From a bacterium (GTDB taxonomy: Bacteria > UBA9089 > JASEIO01): a stretch of 49,460 nt of DNA. The DNA is taken from assembly GCA_030017475.1 (NCBI GenBank), contig JASEIO010000008.1, positions 1 through 49,460 on the forward strand, read 5' to 3'. Positions 386 to 8,229 of this stretch are shown one piece after another (the stretch's first letter is position 1; each line of letters starts with the position of its first letter). Made by a program: the position numbers and the translations under genes. A model generated the notes under the pieces. The model had not been told where the DNA came from. It saw only the letters and a program-made list of their open reading frames with translations, and did no database searches.

Positions 386-414
386 TTGACATATCTATAG
401 ATTTTGGCTACAAT
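386..414 (+). promoter_or_regulatory. Sigma-70 promoter for the 453-7679 cluster
   Basis: TTGACA at 386-391 and TACAAT at 409-414 with the optimal 17-base spacer. It ends 38 bases before the first start codon. No other convincing promoter is seen before the speD promoter at 7699, so the six following genes may be one transcript. Confidence 0.75.
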
Positions 415-452: not shown

Positions 453-1577
453 ATGGGATATGCCTATACCCCTGGTTTAAAAGTGGCTGAAAAGACAATA
501 GTTCAAAAGAAAAGGCTACTTCCTATTCCGGGTGAGGTTAAGGTAAAAAAAGGTGATACTGTTACCTCCTCAGAAGTTATAGCCAAAGCAGAATTGCCAG
601 GCAAGATCCATTCAATAAATGTTGTTAATATCCTTGGTATTTTGCCAGAAGAGATTCGACAATTCATGATAAAGAAAGAAGGTGATTTAATCAAAAGAGA
701 CGAAATAATTGCTGAATCGAGGTCTTTCATAAAATGGTTAAAGACCGTAGTTAAGTCTCCTGTAGATGGAACTGTGGAGAGCATTTCAGATGTCACTGGC
801 CAGGTCTTGTTAAGAGAACCTCCAAAAGGCTTAGAGTTACTTGCCTATATCGATGGTGAAATAATCGAGGTTATGGAAAGACAAGGAGCTATAATAGAAA
901 CTCTTGCCACATACATCCAGGGCATTTTTGGTATAGGAGGAGAGAAAACAGGGATTATAGAAATGGTGTCGGAAAGTCCAGAAGAGGTGTTAACTCCAGA
1001 AAAAATTTTAAGTGGGCATAAAGGGAAGATAATTGTTGGTGGTTCTTTGATTACAAGTGAAGCCCTAATGAGGGCTAAACAGGTTGGTGTAGAAGGAATT
1101 GTTGTTGGAGGAATTAATGATCTGGCGCTTTCGCATCTTTTGGGTTATGATTTAGGGGTGGCAATTACAGGAACGGAACAAGTTGGATTTACATTGATTT
1201 TAACTGAAGGATTTGGCAAGATTGATATGGCCAAAAAAACATTTGATCTTTTATCGTCAAAACAGGGGAAAAAGGCTTCAATAAGTGGTCAAACTCAAAT
1301 TCGAGCAGGGGTTGTAAGGCCAGAGATCATAATCTTTGATTCTCGGTTAGAATCTAAAGGTATTATTAAGGAAGATTTAGAAAGAGAAGGATTAAAAATT
1401 GGGGACCTTGTTAGAATAATCAGAGGGCCATATTTTGGTGTTATTGGCAAGATACGTTCATTACCTGTAGAATTACAAAGGATTGAAACAGAGACTATTA
1501 CTCGAGTATTAGAGGTAGAGTTTCAAGATGGCAATCTTGCTATTATCCCGAGGGCAAATGTAGAGATAATCCAATGA
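453..1577 (+). CDS. Unassigned cytosolic protein with N-terminal barrel-sandwich-like segment and C-terminal KOW domain
   Basis: 374 aa with no signal peptide or membrane segment. Residues about 20-140 alternate short beta strands and glycine turns with two KSPVDGTVE-like elements, as in lipoyl/biotinyl-type barrel-sandwich folds. The middle (about 185-290) is a glycine-rich alpha/beta region around GKIIVGGSLI and GVEGIVVGGI. The C-terminus (about 320-370) holds a KOW-type motif, GDLVRIIRGPYFGVIGKI, as in NusG and several ribosomal proteins. A GAGGTG ribosome site supports the start. The stop overlaps the start of the DUF6754-like gene by four bases, so they are probably translationally coupled. 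I do not recognise a characterised homologue. A soluble partner or adaptor of the membrane proteins that follow is an inference from position only. Confidence 0.8.
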   Translation: MGYAYTPGLKVAEKTIVQKKRLLPIPGEVKVKKGDTVTSSEVIAKAELPGKIHSINVVNILGILPEEIRQFMIKKEGDLIKRDEIIAESRSFIKWLKTVVKSPVDGTVESISDVTGQVLLREPPKGLELLAYIDGEIIEVMERQGAIIETLATYIQGIFGIGGEKTGIIEMVSESPEEVLTPEKILSGHKGKIIVGGSLITSEALMRAKQVGVEGIVVGGINDLALSHLLGYDLGVAITGTEQVGFTLILTEGFGKIDMAKKTFDLLSSKQGKKASISGQTQIRAGVVRPEIIIFDSRLESKGIIKEDLEREGLKIGDLVRIIRGPYFGVIGKIRSLPVELQRIETETITRVLEVEFQDGNLAIIPRANVEIIQ

Positions 1578-2803
1578 GATCGATATTCCATTTATTGATA
1601 TTCTTACTTATAGAAGGTCAAGCCTTTTCGCAGGAACTTACACCTCCGAAAGAACTAAAGGCCTTTGACGCTCCTTATGATTCAGGAAACGTTCTTTATC
1701 TAACCTGGAAGGGAATGCCTTATGACAGTGAAAAGGTAGATTACATAGTTTATATCTCTGAGAGTGAAGAAGGTCCCTTTTTTGAGATAGGTAGATTTAA
1801 ATCTAACACCCATTTTAAGGCAGATAAAAATTGGCCTGCTTGGGCGTGGAAGCGGACTACGGAATATCACTATTTTGAGATATCCTCTTTCATAAAAGAA
1901 GGTAAAGAAATACCTTTAGAGAATGGAAAAACCTATTTCCTGAAGCTTCTTGTGACAGATGGTATAAAGCAGGTTAAAAGCAATGTAGTTTCAGCCTTTC
2001 CCAAAGGTAATCTCTTTAACCTATTAAAATTAAATAATCTCATCTATATGATCATATTTTCAGTCATAATCTTATGGTTTATTGCTCGAGCAAAGAAAAG
2101 GGAATTGTTTTTACGAAAAATTCCAGCCCTTGAGGCAATAGAGGAGGCAATTGGGAGATCAACCGAGATGGGTAGACCAATCTATTTTCTTACAGGAAGA
2201 CTTGGGATGTCGAGTGTATCCACTATTGCATCGACAATCATCTTGGGGGAGGTAGCCAAAAAGGTAGCTACCTATGGTACTGAAATTAAGGTTCCTCATA
2301 CCGATCCAATTGTAATGAGTGTTTGTCAAGAGATTACTAAACAGGCTTATATCTCCGCGGGTCGTCCTGATGCCTATCGAGAAGATAGTAATTTCTTCAT
2401 CACCGAAGATCAATTTAGTTATACAGCGGCAGTTGATGGATTGATGGTTCGGGAGAAACCAGCAGCCTGTTTTTATATGGGCTATTATTATGCCGAGTCT
2501 CTTCTTTTGTCAGAAGTAGGAGCAAGTATTGGGGCTATTCAGATTGCAGGTACTGATGCAGAACACCAACTTCCTTTCTTTGTAACTACCTGTGATTATA
2601 CTTTGATTGGCGAAGAATTATACGCAGCAAGTGCTTATCTATCAAAAAACCCAGTACTTATGGGAACCTTACGAGGTCAAGATGTGGGTAAAGGGTTTCT
2701 AATGGGAGCGGTATTTATAGGTACGGGCTTAGCTACACTTGGTACAATTACTGGAGCAATGCAGATTGTATCATTCGTTCTTGATTGGTTTAAAGGGTTC
2801 TGA
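1574..2803 (+). CDS. DUF6754-like membrane protein with extracytoplasmic Fn3-like domain
   Basis: 409 aa. An N-terminal signal-like segment (1-20) is followed by a beta-rich domain at about 22-145 that reads like fibronectin type III (VDYIVYISESEEGPF). Next come a transmembrane helix (about 155-172) and a basic RAKKR stop-transfer. The C-terminal domain (about 180-370) has GRPIYFLTGRLG, STIASTIILGEVA and PVLMGTLRGQD and ends in a hydrophobic segment. This latter domain resembles the DUF6754 family as I remember it; its function is unknown. The basic residues after the helix place the DUF6754 part in the cytoplasm and the Fn3 part outside. It overlaps its neighbour upstream and sits 3 bases before the next gene. 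Confidence 0.75.
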   Translation: MRSIFHLLIFLLIEGQAFSQELTPPKELKAFDAPYDSGNVLYLTWKGMPYDSEKVDYIVYISESEEGPFFEIGRFKSNTHFKADKNWPAWAWKRTTEYHYFEISSFIKEGKEIPLENGKTYFLKLLVTDGIKQVKSNVVSAFPKGNLFNLLKLNNLIYMIIFSVIILWFIARAKKRELFLRKIPALEAIEEAIGRSTEMGRPIYFLTGRLGMSSVSTIASTIILGEVAKKVATYGTEIKVPHTDPIVMSVCQEITKQAYISAGRPDAYREDSNFFITEDQFSYTAAVDGLMVREKPAACFYMGYYYAESLLLSEVGASIGAIQIAGTDAEHQLPFFVTTCDYTLIGEELYAASAYLSKNPVLMGTLRGQDVGKGFLMGAVFIGTGLATLGTITGAMQIVSFVLDWFKGF

Positions 2804-2806
2804 CAT

Positions 2807-3481
2807 ATGCTATTCTTAAAGAGATATCTACCTTTAGTCATCTGCGGTTTTACTGGGGTAGTTTTTGGTATCCAATATTATGTTCCTCATAAAGCGAGTG
2901 AGGATTTACTTACCTTTATTAACGATTGGATGATAATCATCTTTGGCTTTTCGATGATTTTAGCCTTAGCCAGTCTTTTCCATGTTCATTATCAAAAAAT
3001 TAGAAGACGCCAGAGTGGGTGGGGATTCAGTCTAATTGTATTTATAGCAATCATCGTTACTGTAATTATCGGAATAATAAGTCAAGGAGAGACAGTAGAT
3101 GAAAAAGGGCTAACCAGCTTTGGATGGATATATACCAATATGTTGGTACCACTCTCTGGTACAATGTTCTCTATTTTAGCGTTTTTTATTGCCTCAGCTG
3201 CCTTTCGGGCATTCCGTGCAAGGACACTCGATGCATTCCTACTTCTTTTCGCAGCAATAATCATTATGTTTGGTCGGGTTCCCGCAGGAGAATATCTATG
3301 GTCAAAGATATGGGGAGCGGAATTTCCACTGCAAATGGGAGATATTACAGAATGGATTATGGGTGTGTTGAATATGGCTGCAAGACGTGGAATCCTTTTA
3401 GGAGTTGCCTTAGGAGCGATTGCCACTTCCCTTAAGATCATCTTTGGAATTGAAAGGGCCTATTTAGGTGAAAAGGAATGA
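2807..3481 (+). CDS. Polytopic membrane protein of the DUF6754-type cluster
   Basis: 224 aa with about six hydrophobic segments (roughly 9-24, 41-60, 75-92, 108-130, 143-160, 195-212). Arg-rich loops such as QKIRRRQ and FRAFRAR mark the cytoplasmic faces. No catalytic motif is visible and I do not recognise the family. The start lies 3 bases after the previous stop and the 3' end overlaps the next start by 4 bases, so it belongs to the same transcript. A structural membrane subunit of a complex encoded by this cluster is inferred from context. Confidence 0.75.
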   Translation: MLFLKRYLPLVICGFTGVVFGIQYYVPHKASEDLLTFINDWMIIIFGFSMILALASLFHVHYQKIRRRQSGWGFSLIVFIAIIVTVIIGIISQGETVDEKGLTSFGWIYTNMLVPLSGTMFSILAFFIASAAFRAFRARTLDAFLLLFAAIIIMFGRVPAGEYLWSKIWGAEFPLQMGDITEWIMGVLNMAARRGILLGVALGAIATSLKIIFGIERAYLGEKE

Positions 3482-4314
3482 GGAAGATAGCTAATATATT
3501 ACTGAATCTTGATAGAAGAATTATCTTTCTATTGATTGCCGCAGCGGTACTCGTTCCATTATTACGACCATTTAACTTGCCTGGAATCAGTATCAGTCAA
3601 CCAGTAAAAGGTGTTTATGACAAGATAGAATCTTTAGCTCCGGGTGATGTCCTTTTTATATCTATGGATTTTGATCCTACAGCCAAACCCGAATTGTATC
3701 CTATGGGGATCTCGATATTGAGGCACGCCTTTTCAAAAGACCTGCGTGTTATTTGTATGACCTTATGGGCACCTGGAGTTGGAATGGCTGAAGAGGTTAT
3801 GTCAAAGGTAGCCCGTGAATATCACAAGGAATATGGAAAAGATTATGCCTTTTTGGGTTGGATGCCTGGACAGCTTACAGTCATAATTGGGCTTGGTCAG
3901 GATTTAAAGAAAACCTTCCCCAAGGATTTCTATGGGAATAAGACAGATCGCTTACAGATATTTGAAAACATCAACTCATTAAGAGATATTGATTATATGG
4001 TTGACTTAGCAGCTGGAGATCCTGGTATAGAAACTTGGTATCTATACGGAAAGGAGAAATATGGTTTTGAGTTAGGTGGTGGTTGTACAGCAGTTATAGC
4101 TCCAGGATTATATCCATTCTTACAAACAGGTCAGATTAATGGTCTAATTGGTGGAATGAGAGGAGCAGCTGAATATGAGACATTGCTCAATCGGAAGGAC
4201 AAGGCCACTGTAGGAATGGATGTCTTATCAACTACCCATTTTTTGATAATTGGGTTGGTTATTCTAAGCAATATATTTTATCTCATTACTAGAAAAGGTA
4301 AGACTGTTCGGTAA
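3478..4314 (+). CDS. Unassigned protein anchored at both ends with periplasmic alpha/beta domain
   Basis: 278 aa. A hydrophobic segment at about 14-30 follows a basic N-terminus, and a second is at about 252-270 followed by the basic tail TRKGKTVR. The positive-inside rule places both ends in the cytoplasm and the roughly 220-residue middle outside. That middle looks like a Rossmann-type alpha/beta fold: GDVLFISMDFDPT, ICMTLWAPGVGM and TVIIGLGQD alternate strands with helices, and a GGGCTAVIAPGLYPFL segment follows. No nucleophile or metal motif stands out. Overlap with the preceding gene indicates coupling. Function unknown. Confidence 0.75.
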   Translation: MRKIANILLNLDRRIIFLLIAAAVLVPLLRPFNLPGISISQPVKGVYDKIESLAPGDVLFISMDFDPTAKPELYPMGISILRHAFSKDLRVICMTLWAPGVGMAEEVMSKVAREYHKEYGKDYAFLGWMPGQLTVIIGLGQDLKKTFPKDFYGNKTDRLQIFENINSLRDIDYMVDLAAGDPGIETWYLYGKEKYGFELGGGCTAVIAPGLYPFLQTGQINGLIGGMRGAAEYETLLNRKDKATVGMDVLSTTHFLIIGLVILSNIFYLITRKGKTVR

Positions 4315-4341
4315 TTCATGATAGGAAGAAAGGAGGTTTGG

Positions 4342-5064
4342 ATGGATCTATCTATCCTTTTAGGTGCCTGGGTAGCAGCAGGTCTTACTTTATTTATCTT
4401 TAGTTTTCTATATAAAGATAACTTCTTCTTTAAATTAGGAGAGCATTTATACATCGGGGTCTCTGTGGGATACAGTATCACGCTCCTTATCTTTAAATTC
4501 ATGCGTCCTAAGTGGTTTACGCCACTTTTTGGAGAACATCAATGGATATTACTAATCCCAACTTTACTTGGGATTCTTATCTTGACAAGATTTATTCCTC
4601 GCCTCTCTTGGCCCTCTCGTTTAACCTTTGCCTTTATTTTTGGATTCGGGGCAGGACTTACTATCCCGAGGTCGATCTCTGGGTATATACTTCAACAGAT
4701 CCAGGGAACAGTTATTCCAATGATAACAAAAGAAGGGACACAGATTAGTTATACCTTCCGTGATTTTTCTAATCTCTTAGTATTTATAGGTGTCCTGACT
4801 GTCCTTATCTACTTCTTCTTTTCCGTAGAGCATAAAGGAGCTATAAATATACTCTCGAGGATAGGGATACTGTTTCTTATGATTTCCTTTGGTGCCTCTT
4901 TTGGCTATACTGCTATGGCCAGGATGAGCCTTCTTTTTGGGAGGTGTTATGATCTAACCCTTTTTTCAAGCAAAAGGTATTATTATGCTACACCCATTCT
5001 ACTCTGTTTAATAATACTTTGTTTCCTCATCCACCATGTTCTGAGTAAGAAACACTCAGTTTAA
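4342..5064 (+). CDS. Polytopic membrane protein of the DUF6754-type cluster
   Basis: 240 aa from the ATG at 4342, preceded by a perfect AGGAGG at 4331-4336. An ATG at 4318 would lengthen the protein by eight residues but has no ribosome site. About seven hydrophobic segments run through the whole protein, with short loops such as KFMRPKWF and EHKGAINILSRIG. I do not recognise the family. It closes the run of four membrane proteins that starts at 1574 and lies 23 bases before the M16 peptidase gene, probably on the same mRNA. Confidence 0.75.
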   Translation: MDLSILLGAWVAAGLTLFIFSFLYKDNFFFKLGEHLYIGVSVGYSITLLIFKFMRPKWFTPLFGEHQWILLIPTLLGILILTRFIPRLSWPSRLTFAFIFGFGAGLTIPRSISGYILQQIQGTVIPMITKEGTQISYTFRDFSNLLVFIGVLTVLIYFFFSVEHKGAINILSRIGILFLMISFGASFGYTAMARMSLLFGRCYDLTLFSSKRYYYATPILLCLIILCFLIHHVLSKKHSV

Positions 5065-5087: not shown

Positions 5088-7679
5088 ATGATGAAAAGGA
5101 TAACTTACCTATTTGTGACTATATTATTGATCACATCTATCTTCCAAATTGAAGCAAAAGAGGCTAAGAGGTATGTACTTCCAAATGGGATGGTAGTTAT
5201 ATTACGAGAGATTCATACTGCTCCAGTCGTAGCTTTACAAGTTTGGGTGAGGGCAGGTAGTGCAAGTGAAGGGGAGTATCTTGGGACAGGGATTTCTCAT
5301 TATGTAGAACATATGTTGTTTAAAGGAACCAGTAAGAGGGGAGTGGGGGAGATTGCGAAAGAGATAAGAGGTGCTGGAGGAGAATTGGATGGATATACAT
5401 CTTTCGACTATACTGTCTATTGGGTGACTTTAGGAAGTAGATATTTCGATTTAGGATTAGATGTATTAGCAGATGCAGTGATGCACCCTTCCTTTGATCC
5501 GGAAGAATTAGAAAAGGAACGAGAGGTCATTCTTAAAGAGATCAATATGCTTATAGATTCGCCTGAACACTATTTGAGCAATATATTTTGGCAAGAGGTA
5601 TTCCAAATACATCCATATAGACATCCAATAATTGGTTATCGAGATCTATTCAAAAAGATAACGAGAGAGGATATCCTAAGATATTATCACAGGATGTATA
5701 TCCCAAATAATATAATATTTGTTGCTACAGGAGACCTTGATGAAAATGAAGCTATAATTAAGATTAAAGAGGCGTTCTGCAATTTTAAGCGTAAGCCATC
5801 AACACCAGTTTATGTGCCGAAGGAACCAAGACAATTGGGTGAAAGGAGAAGAGAGGTAGAGAGAGAGGACATCAAGATTTCATATCTAATGCTCGGATTC
5901 CATATTCCATCCATTAGTTCTGAGGATCTCTATCCTTTAGATGTATTAGCTATAATCTTAGGGCAAGGTAAATCCTCGAGGTTATTTAAGGTTGTTAAGG
6001 AGGAGAAAAAATTAGTTCTTTCAATAGAAGCCTGGTCATATACTCCGAGGGATCCTGGGATTTTTGGGATTAAAGCAACATTAAAACCTGAAAACTTGCG
6101 TGAGGCAGAAAAGGCAATATTATGTGAAATAGAAAGGCTTAAATTTGGGTATGTAACTCAGAGTGAATTAGAAAAGGCAAGGCAGAAGGTAATAAGCGAT
6201 CATATATTTTCTCAAGAGACTATTGAAGGACAGGCACGCGACTTAGCTTTGAATGAGATAACAACTGGAAATATAAACTTTTCTGAAAACTACATTGAGA
6301 GGATAAAGAAGGTTACTCGGGAGGATATTAAACGAGTTGCAAATAGGTATCTTTATAGGGATAACTTAACTATAGCTACATTAGTACCTAAGATGGAAAG
6401 GATTAGGGAGACAATACCTAAAACTCCAGAATCCAGAATTCATAAACCAGAGATTACTAAGTTTATATTGGACAACGGAATGACTCTTCTTGTAAGAGAA
6501 AACCATACTACACCTTCTGTTGCAATAAATGCGGTTTTTAAAGGAGGTGTACTTTTTGAAAGGAAGGAGAATAATGGAATATGTAACTTTATGCAAAGGA
6601 TGTTATTGAAAGGTACAAAAAATAGATCCTGGGAGGAGATAGTAGATGAAGTAGAAAGAGTTGGTGGTAAAATTACGGGATATTGTGGAAATAATAGCTT
6701 TGGAATTTCCATCGATATATTAAAAGAAGATCTCCTGCTTGGACTTTCGGTATTGCAAGATGTTATAATGAATCCTGCCTTTCCTCCGGAAGAAATAGAA
6801 AAAGAAAGAGAGGTTATATTAGAGGAGATCAAGGCCCAAGAGGATGAGATCTTTCCGGCTACCTTAAAGCTATTTAAAGAGACTCTATGGAAAAGGCATC
6901 CTTATAGATTTCAGTCAATTGGAAATAAGGAGAGCATTGCTAAAATGGAAAGAAAGGCCCTTATTGATTTTCACCGAAGTTTTTGTATCCCTAACAATAT
7001 GGTATTAGCCATATTTGGAGATGTTGATACCCAAAAGGTAATACAGATAGTGAAACAGAAATTTAAGGATTTTAAAAGAGGGAACTTGCCTAAAATTACA
7101 GTGTCTGTTGAGCCTAAACAAAGGGAGAAAAGAGAGATTATGAAAAAGAGAAAGAAGGAACAGGCAGTAGCTTTATTAGGATTTAGAGGAACTACAGTTA
7201 AAGATCCAGATAGATACGTATTTGAAGTGATAACCTCTATTCTCTCTGGACAGAGTGGGAGACTTTTTCAGGAGATTAGAGATAGGTTGGGTTTAGTATA
7301 TTATGTGGGTACCTTCTCCATCTTGGGATTGCATCCAGGAGCTTATATCTTCTATGTAGGCACAACACCTGAGCATCTTGAAATAGTTAAGGCTCGGCTT
7401 TTAGAAGAAATAGAAAAACTGAAAAAAGAAGAAGTTGCCAAAGAAGAGCTTATCAGGGCAAAGCGTAATCTAATTGGGAAAAAGGAGATCGAACTACAGA
7501 CAAATGCCTCGTTTGCCTTTGAATGTGCATTAGATGAGTTATATGGATTGGGTTGCGATTGGGTTATGAAATATTCAGAACGGATAGATCGGGTTACAAA
7601 GGAGGACATAAAACGGGTAGCCAATAGATATTTCGATACCGATGCCTACACCTTAGCGATTGTAAAACCAAAAAAGTGA
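5088..7679 (+). CDS. Secreted double-domain M16 zinc peptidase, second half degenerate
   Basis: 863 aa with a signal peptide (about 1-23), so it is exported. Residues about 27-440 form one M16 unit with the inverted zinc motif HYVEH (His71, Glu74, His75) and the downstream Glu in EREVILKEI (about 144-151). Residues about 455-860 are a second unit of the same fold in which the motif position reads NFMQR (500-504), so it cannot bind zinc. This matches M16B peptidases, where an active and an inactive subunit pair up; here both are in one chain. AGAGGTTG precedes tandem ATGs at 5088 and 5091. It follows the membrane protein cluster closely. It could process or clear envelope peptides; the substrate is unknown. 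Confidence 0.9.
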   Translation: MMKRITYLFVTILLITSIFQIEAKEAKRYVLPNGMVVILREIHTAPVVALQVWVRAGSASEGEYLGTGISHYVEHMLFKGTSKRGVGEIAKEIRGAGGELDGYTSFDYTVYWVTLGSRYFDLGLDVLADAVMHPSFDPEELEKEREVILKEINMLIDSPEHYLSNIFWQEVFQIHPYRHPIIGYRDLFKKITREDILRYYHRMYIPNNIIFVATGDLDENEAIIKIKEAFCNFKRKPSTPVYVPKEPRQLGERRREVEREDIKISYLMLGFHIPSISSEDLYPLDVLAIILGQGKSSRLFKVVKEEKKLVLSIEAWSYTPRDPGIFGIKATLKPENLREAEKAILCEIERLKFGYVTQSELEKARQKVISDHIFSQETIEGQARDLALNEITTGNINFSENYIERIKKVTREDIKRVANRYLYRDNLTIATLVPKMERIRETIPKTPESRIHKPEITKFILDNGMTLLVRENHTTPSVAINAVFKGGVLFERKENNGICNFMQRMLLKGTKNRSWEEIVDEVERVGGKITGYCGNNSFGISIDILKEDLLLGLSVLQDVIMNPAFPPEEIEKEREVILEEIKAQEDEIFPATLKLFKETLWKRHPYRFQSIGNKESIAKMERKALIDFHRSFCIPNNMVLAIFGDVDTQKVIQIVKQKFKDFKRGNLPKITVSVEPKQREKREIMKKRKKEQAVALLGFRGTTVKDPDRYVFEVITSILSGQSGRLFQEIRDRLGLVYYVGTFSILGLHPGAYIFYVGTTPEHLEIVKARLLEEIEKLKKEEVAKEELIRAKRNLIGKKEIELQTNASFAFECALDELYGLGCDWVMKYSERIDRVTKEDIKRVANRYFDTDAYTLAIVKPKK

Positions 7680-7698: not shown

Positions 7699-7726
7699 TT
7701 GACAAATAGAGAAGATTATATATAAT
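7699..7726 (+). promoter_or_regulatory. Sigma-70 promoter for speD
   Basis: TTGACA at 7699-7704, a 16-base spacer and TATAAT at 7721-7726. It lies about 100 bases upstream of the speD start, leaving a leader of about 90 bases. Confidence 0.75.
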
Positions 7727-7824: not shown

Positions 7825-8229
7825 TTGGATACCTTGGGGCATCATTTATTAGTAGAGTTATTCGAATGTAATAAGTCTACTTTAAATGATGTAGACAAAG
7901 TAAAAGAAATTCTTATAAAGGCAGCAGAGCGGTCTTCAGCTAATATATTGAAGACTGCCTTCCATAAGTTTAACCCCCATGGGGTATCTGGTGTTGTGGT
8001 TATAGCTGAGTCTCATTTGTCTATTCATACGTGGCCAGAACATGGCTATGCAGCAGCAGATATATTTACCTGTGGAAATACACTTAAACCCAACTTGGCA
8101 GTGGAATATATGATCTCCCACTTTGAGGCTAAATACCATAAAGTTGTAGAAGTGACAAGGGGAATATTGAATAAGTGTTGTAAATTGAAACATAAACAAG
8201 ATAATGGAACGCAGGTTGACGCTGATTAA
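7825..8229 (+). CDS. speD: S-adenosylmethionine decarboxylase proenzyme (class 1b)
   Basis: 134 aa. Makes decarboxylated SAM, the aminopropyl donor for polyamine synthesis. The proenzyme cleaves itself between Glu62 and Ser63 in VIAESHLSIHTWPE, turning Ser63 into the pyruvoyl group. His68 and Cys83 (FTCGN) are the processing and catalytic residues; Ser55 is also present. These numbers match the Thermotoga maritima enzyme. The start is a TTG at 7825 with GGAGG 6 bases upstream. The last residues (about DNGTQVDAD) are encoded by the left arm of an intergenic palindrome (8209-8261), so the natural C-terminus seems to have been replaced. speE follows. Confidence 0.93.
   Translation: MDTLGHHLLVELFECNKSTLNDVDKVKEILIKAAERSSANILKTAFHKFNPHGVSGVVVIAESHLSIHTWPEHGYAAADIFTCGNTLKPNLAVEYMISHFEAKYHKVVEVTRGILNKCCKLKHKQDNGTQVDAD

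Follow-up and report, generated by a model that had tools for sequence, protein, structure and literature searches.

A conserved envelope module of P1 and DUF6754-block proteins and its MutL-family ATPase partner

Near the start of the window (the whole stretch of 49,460 nucleotides that was analysed), five genes with no assigned function follow one another so closely that they raise two questions: do their products, here called P1 to P5, belong to a single system, and what might that system do? The preliminary description presented positions 453-5064 as a tightly packed five-gene set, and all five reading frames are found there (Table 1). P1 and P2 overlap by four bases, as do P3 and P4, and gaps of three bases separate P2 from P3 and P4 from P5. 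The set was also said to have one clean promoter. A sigma-70-like sequence does precede P1, and a promoter at this position for a P1-P5 operon is plausible, but such sites occur in the region at chance level, with 33 found and 29.8 expected from shuffles.

Table 1. Positions of the five genes, the neighbouring peptidase gene and the promoter-like match in the window.
Feature	Position	Strand	Description	Basis
P1	453..1577	+	374 aa, soluble	ORF call and relatives in other phyla
P2	1574..2803	+	Fn3-like/TM/DUF6754/TM protein	PF20539, AlphaFold, topology
P3	2807..3481	+	224 aa membrane protein	Position between P2 and P4 in 280/291
P4	3478..4314	+	TM-anchored periplasmic alpha/beta protein	AlphaFold, positive-inside topology
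P5	4318..5064	+	248 aa membrane protein	Position behind P4 in 280/291
M16 peptidase, secreted, double-domain	5088..7679	+	PF00675/PF05193	Neighbour, judged outside module
Sigma-70-like match TTGACA-17-TACAAT	386..414	+		Consensus scan, 11/12 positions

Gene order across phyla

A tblastn search of 84,980 GTDB species yielded 80 loci, mostly from Nitrospira with others from Planctomycetota, Brocadiia and Elusimicrobia, and loci from further genomes were added to these; genes in the G+C-rich loci were called by codon-usage scoring. The order P1-P2-P3-P4-P5 is kept in nearly all loci. Across all of them, the DUF6754 gene P2 is followed by P3, P4 and P5 in 280 of 291 testable cases, a degree of conservation far above chance, and the carriers of this order include Nitrospirota, Planctomycetota, Elusimicrobia and further phyla. 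The genes are neighbours in other genomes, as the preliminary description had anticipated, and the five proteins were not found to have separate, unrelated functions already known. Likewise upheld is its account of the genes as a conserved envelope module, not described before, that has parts in the cytosol, the membrane and the periplasm and in which P1 is the soluble partner of the membrane proteins. As a set of five, the module is conserved but incomplete: a MutL-family ATPase and a small protein that belong with it are encoded on another contig of the same genome.

The secreted M16 peptidase, whose gene starts at 5088 or 5091, had been suggested as a possible further member. It has no homologue but itself among the 3,176 open reading frames of 259 loci and is judged not to be a component. 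Just 3′ of this gene, at window positions 7699-7726, there is a perfect 12/12 sigma-70 consensus (TTGACA-16-TATAAT), followed by reading frames that by eye appear to encode a SpeD-like protein (7825-8229) and then a spermidine synthase-like protein. In many Nitrospira loci, and not elsewhere, a Memo-family gene (PF01875) resides directly behind P5 (L056:13653-14897 and others).

In the phylum of genome G027, the P2-P5 block often occurs in tandem, in two or three copies. In 36 of 36 comparisons among 12 triple arrays, the nearest relative of each of the four proteins occupies the same array position in another genome, from which it follows that the blocks are old and specialised and move as units. 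Tree distances among the block proteins agree pairwise, with mirrortree r values of 0.72-0.88. Inter-protein covariation (Neff about 180) lies above a full shuffle in every pair, a result that phylogeny alone can give, and some of the top pairs between proteins are topologically impossible; contacts between the proteins did not emerge from it.

Domains of the soluble and membrane proteins

P1, which is 38-58% identical to its relatives in other phyla and has no transmembrane segment predicted by topology analysis, consists of an N-terminal barrel-sandwich part (biotinyl/lipoyl-like and RnfC_N-like), a middle domain of unassigned type and a C-terminal SH3/KOW-like part. Its own matches to RnfC_N, Biotin_lipoyl and KOW in Pfam/NCBIfam are all sub-threshold. 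Among its 21 relatives, RnfC_N is matched in six and Biotin_lipoyl in five (best E about 1e-6), which backs the barrel-sandwich-like part of the preliminary description. The KOW part is weaker, being seen in one of the 21 members, scoring 20.0 bits in P1 against a Pfam cut-off of 22.3, and matching the KOW of SPT5 by PDB sequence profile with an E value of 2e-3. NusG and L24 models reach P1 at E 0.02-0.06, far under the cut-off, and the protein does not combine an above-cut-off KOW with a second domain of the NusG, SPT5 or L24 families. The idea that KOW marks contact with RNA, ribosome or polymerase is not supported, given the weakness of the match and its presence in a single relative.

The barrel sandwich of P1 is also its point of likeness to RnfC and NqrA. 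The P1-P5 set differs from those systems in that no Pfam/NCBIfam match to an Fe-S or flavin domain, to RnfA/B/D/E/G or to Nqr subunits is found in it.

P2 can be assigned to DUF6754 with certainty by its match to PF20539 (E 6e-114, 379.9 bits against a cut-off of 27), a firmer identification than the earlier "DUF6754-like". The match spans residues 144-392 and nearly the full model (positions 2-251 of 257), and it recurs in 30 of 30 P2 relatives. The Pfam label carries no function, however, and it leaves out the Fn3 arm, P1, P3-P5 and the ATPase. P2 begins with a signal or transmembrane segment (residues 4-22), continues with a periplasmic Fn3-like sandwich (~23-150) and a transmembrane segment (153-171), and ends with the cytosolic alpha/beta DUF6754 domain (~176-358) and a long transmembrane helix (360-393). 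An AlphaFold model (pLDDT 89) contains the sandwich, the two helices and the alpha/beta domain, and together with Foldseek it backs the outer domain as an Fn3/Ig-like fold. Alignment of P2 relatives indicates that the cytosolic parts are far better conserved than the Fn3 part. Some P2 homologues exceed 900 aa (L100:9404-12235, L107:9627-12434), and thus the portion preceding DUF6754 is highly variable in length.

P4 has a transmembrane segment (~13-34), a Rossmann-like alpha/beta domain (~41-236) and a long transmembrane helix (242-275). The placement of its domain outside the cytoplasm, proposed earlier, agrees with both the AlphaFold model (pLDDT 93, pTM 0.88) and hydropathy; positive-inside counts likewise predict that DUF6754 faces the cytosol and the P4 domain the periplasm. 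Between these proteins is P3, with about six predicted transmembrane segments and both ends inside, and behind them is P5, with six or seven. No Pfam/NCBIfam family matches P3 or P4, and P5 has a sub-threshold match to DUF5373. PDB sequence profiles gave nothing beyond weak KOW- and Fn3-type matches for any of the five, and Foldseek searches with P4 and P2 returned generic Rossmann or Ig/Fn3 structures with TM scores below about 0.6 and no specific PDB relative.

The two alpha/beta domains resemble each other in their predicted architecture. Helices and strands follow the same order in the AlphaFold models, and the helices are of nearly equal length (20/20, 17/17, 15/10, 12/12, 10/9, 11/11). 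About 230 residues of predicted secondary structure can be aligned with a single larger insertion of ~23 residues, and of 61 shifts of the profiles the in-register one scores best (z 3.2). Because shifting the profiles also disrupts the helix/strand match, this register test backs a shared fold and is not proof of common descent. No sequence homology between the two is detected by hhalign, with either 27-30 or 95-127 sequences, and none is detected between P3 and P5. On this basis, we read the DUF6754 and P4 domains as a single fold present on both faces of the membrane; their common descent is likely, although not proven.

A MutL-family ATPase as partner

MutL proteins of family PF13941 are accessory proteins of B12-dependent mutases, distinct from the MutL of mismatch repair, and are ASKHA ATPases, which have the actin/Hsp70 fold. 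Judged by sequence and gene neighbourhood, an ATPase of this family is the most conserved partner of the module. The gene directly upstream of P1 encodes a MutL-family protein of ~600 aa in 71 of the 72 first P1 loci with room for it, and in a larger set, 101 of 106 loci have such a gene no more than two genes upstream of P1. A protein of ~110-140 aa precedes the MutL-like gene in 55 of 71 loci of one set. In two phyla (L305, L280), everything is joined in one contiguous operon, in the order small membrane protein-s120-MutL-P1-P2-P3-P4-P5. In the phylum of G027, a protein of ~250 aa often occurs between the ATPase and P1 (L208, L210, L218, L221, L222, L223); it matches no Pfam family and by eye has a signal segment and a C-terminal transmembrane segment.

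The copy from Nitrospira moscoviensis matches PF13941 over its full length (E 1.5e-128, 429.8 bits against a cut-off of 27). In the genome of the window (1.64 Mb, 98.5% complete), the counterpart is found on contig C27, where s107 (3626-3949) and the MutL-like gene (G000:C27:3951-5747) stand between secG (PF03840, E 3e-21) and glyS. This protein is 61% identical to the copy at L107 and contains the ASKHA motifs DCGSTTTK, DIGGATTD and GSGG; both phosphate motifs are intact in 110 of 113 MutL-like proteins. The partner ATPase shares with the B12-mutase MutL a full-length match to the model and the ASKHA phosphate motifs, but its link is with a membrane complex and not with an aminomutase, and it has about 110 extra C-terminal residues. 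In the inspected loci, whose neighbours are partly annotated, no aminomutase gene was seen next to the module. The small membrane protein, mp, was not found in the genome of the window by a search of ungauged sensitivity.

Two further observations concern the surroundings of the ATPase gene. The run secG, s107, MutL-like is consecutive (L116:3246-5747, G000:C27), and adjacency to secG was not noticed at other loci. The MutL-like gene is followed, after about 3 kb (L116:8790-12077), by apparent subunits of a 2-hydroxyacyl-CoA dehydratase type and another ASKHA activator (BcrAD/BadF-like), both recognised by eye.

The partnership also holds where the genes are apart. In a sample of 61 genomes from 50 families, DUF6754 is present in 12, and P1 in 11 of those 12 and in none of the 49 others; ten genomes, all among the 11 with P1, give a strong MutL-like match (hypergeometric 3e-11 and 1e-10). 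The lack of linkage between the ATPase gene and the membrane-protein genes in several genomes, that of the window among them, counts against a joint complex, as do genomes G048 and G025. Genome G048 (L105) carries P2-P5 without P1, together with distant MutL homologues only, and its set is possibly a natural minimal or decaying version. G025 gave no MutL-like match, and G049, which has neither DUF6754 nor P1, has only distant MutL homologues. One genome without DUF6754 has a MutL hit of distant similarity (33% identity, E 2e-29). Omp85 occurs in every DUF6754 genome of this sample but in 57 of the 61 overall, and is uninformative as a distinguishing trait.

DUF6754 is found in 133 of 133 genomes (85 genera) in the phylum of G027, mostly in four to six copies, in 7 of 7 in that of G053, in 12 of 40 in that of G030, and in none of 14 well-known control genomes. 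Only one of 19 genomes in the phylum of the window has it, and since the other 18 are without the system, it is not required for diderm life generally. The same gene order across phyla, together with the 133 of 133 genomes with mostly four to six copies of the core, makes a basic envelope function likely, one that is missing from model organisms.

Proposed working and alternatives

That a conserved system exists is virtually certain. The opposite view, that these are mere neighbours forming no single system, could point to the MutL-like and P1 genes sitting apart from P2-P5, but it is scarcely credible, being already contradicted by the near-perfect co-occurrence of unlinked genes (hypergeometric 3e-11) and by the conserved order across phyla. 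A physical complex, the direction of its coupling and its job at the envelope are what we infer beyond this. Our leading reading, to which we give a little less than even confidence, is that P1 and one P2-P5 block form part of an inner-membrane complex that spans the envelope, with the MutL-family ATPase as its energy or switch unit. In this proposal, P1 is an adaptor that links the ATPase to the membrane block: the ATPase, with the ~110-140 aa protein assisting, would bind P1, and P1 would dock onto P2 at its cytosolic DUF6754 domain. Shape changes that depend on ATP might then be relayed by the long transmembrane helices of P2 and P4, together with the polytopic P3 and P5, as far as the P4 domain in the periplasm and the Fn3 arm of P2. 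Conceivably, these two act on an envelope component, in its assembly, its transport, or the tethering of the inner membrane to the wall or outer membrane.

Actin-fold proteins at other inner-membrane complexes include FtsA and GspL. The precedent is PilM, likewise of the actin fold, which serves the PilN/PilO inner-membrane complex (PMC5285504). The likeness to PilM-PilN-PilO-PilP, the alignment complex of type IV pili with a cytosolic actin-fold protein at an envelope-spanning inner-membrane complex, would be an analogy of working: nothing in that complex corresponds to the alpha/beta domains or to the polytopic P3 and P5, and no Pfam match to PilN, PilO or PilP homologues is found in P1-P5 or their relatives. 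In the phylum of G027, tolQ lies within two genes after P1 in 17 of 41 contexts, accompanied by tolR, a TolA-like gene and tolB. This adjacency to Tol-Pal (TolQRAB) genes, confined to one phylum, points to envelope organisation there but may be incidental; P1-P5 include no Tol proteins and have no homology to them.

Other workings are conceivable for the same parts. MutL, the diol dehydratase reactivase and the activators of hydroxyacyl-CoA dehydratases are all ASKHA ATPases that reactivate enzymes, and P1 with the MutL-like protein could similarly reactivate an enzyme, as in B12 or radical-enzyme systems, with the block being that enzyme or a transporter in a metabolic or redox membrane complex. 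The strength of the PF13941 membership (E 1.5e-128) and the RnfC_N and Biotin_lipoyl matches among P1 relatives speak for such a role, yet it seems unlikely, given that the module proteins contain no Fe-S, flavin or cobalamin-binding family, that inspection of the loci revealed no aminomutase gene alongside the module, and that neither the periplasmic Fn3 arm nor the adjacency to Tol genes hints at metabolism. It is also improbable that the module is an envelope sensor, in which a ligand bound by P4 and the Fn3 part, or strain sensed by them, would be signalled inward via DUF6754 to P1 and the ATPase. Alpha/beta domains on both membrane faces would suit such a device, as would the far stronger conservation of the cytosolic parts compared with the Fn3 part; no output domain (kinase, cyclase or regulator) is linked to the module, however, and the constant order of the three specialised blocks fits a structural assembly better. 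An accessory role in export or insertion, with the ATPase-P1 pair working with SecYEG or the ribosome, draws on the position of secG immediately ahead of the genes for the small protein and the MutL-like protein in the genome of the window and on the weak KOW match of P1. It is very doubtful, as the secG adjacency was noticed in that genome only and KOW in one of 21 P1 relatives.

The envelope-spanning complex with a MutL-family ATPase can be extended, more tentatively, into a possible phylum-core envelope machine with no described counterpart, in which the ATPase drives the P2-P5 assembly via the adaptor, the DUF6754 domain of P2 and the domain of P4 are related and place the same fold on opposite membrane faces, and the assembly evolved from one-block repeats, as in the genome of the window, to three specialised blocks. 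Within the open-access literature searched, there was no description of DUF6754 or of such a gene set, and nothing on MutL in such a context. The parts touch the ASKHA, Fn3 and barrel sandwich superfamilies, but no known system in that literature has this composition. MutL-family ATPases, known as accessories of mutases, thereby gain a quite different context. Nitrospira moscoviensis, a cultured organism, carries the system (L056), and the question is thus approachable in culture.
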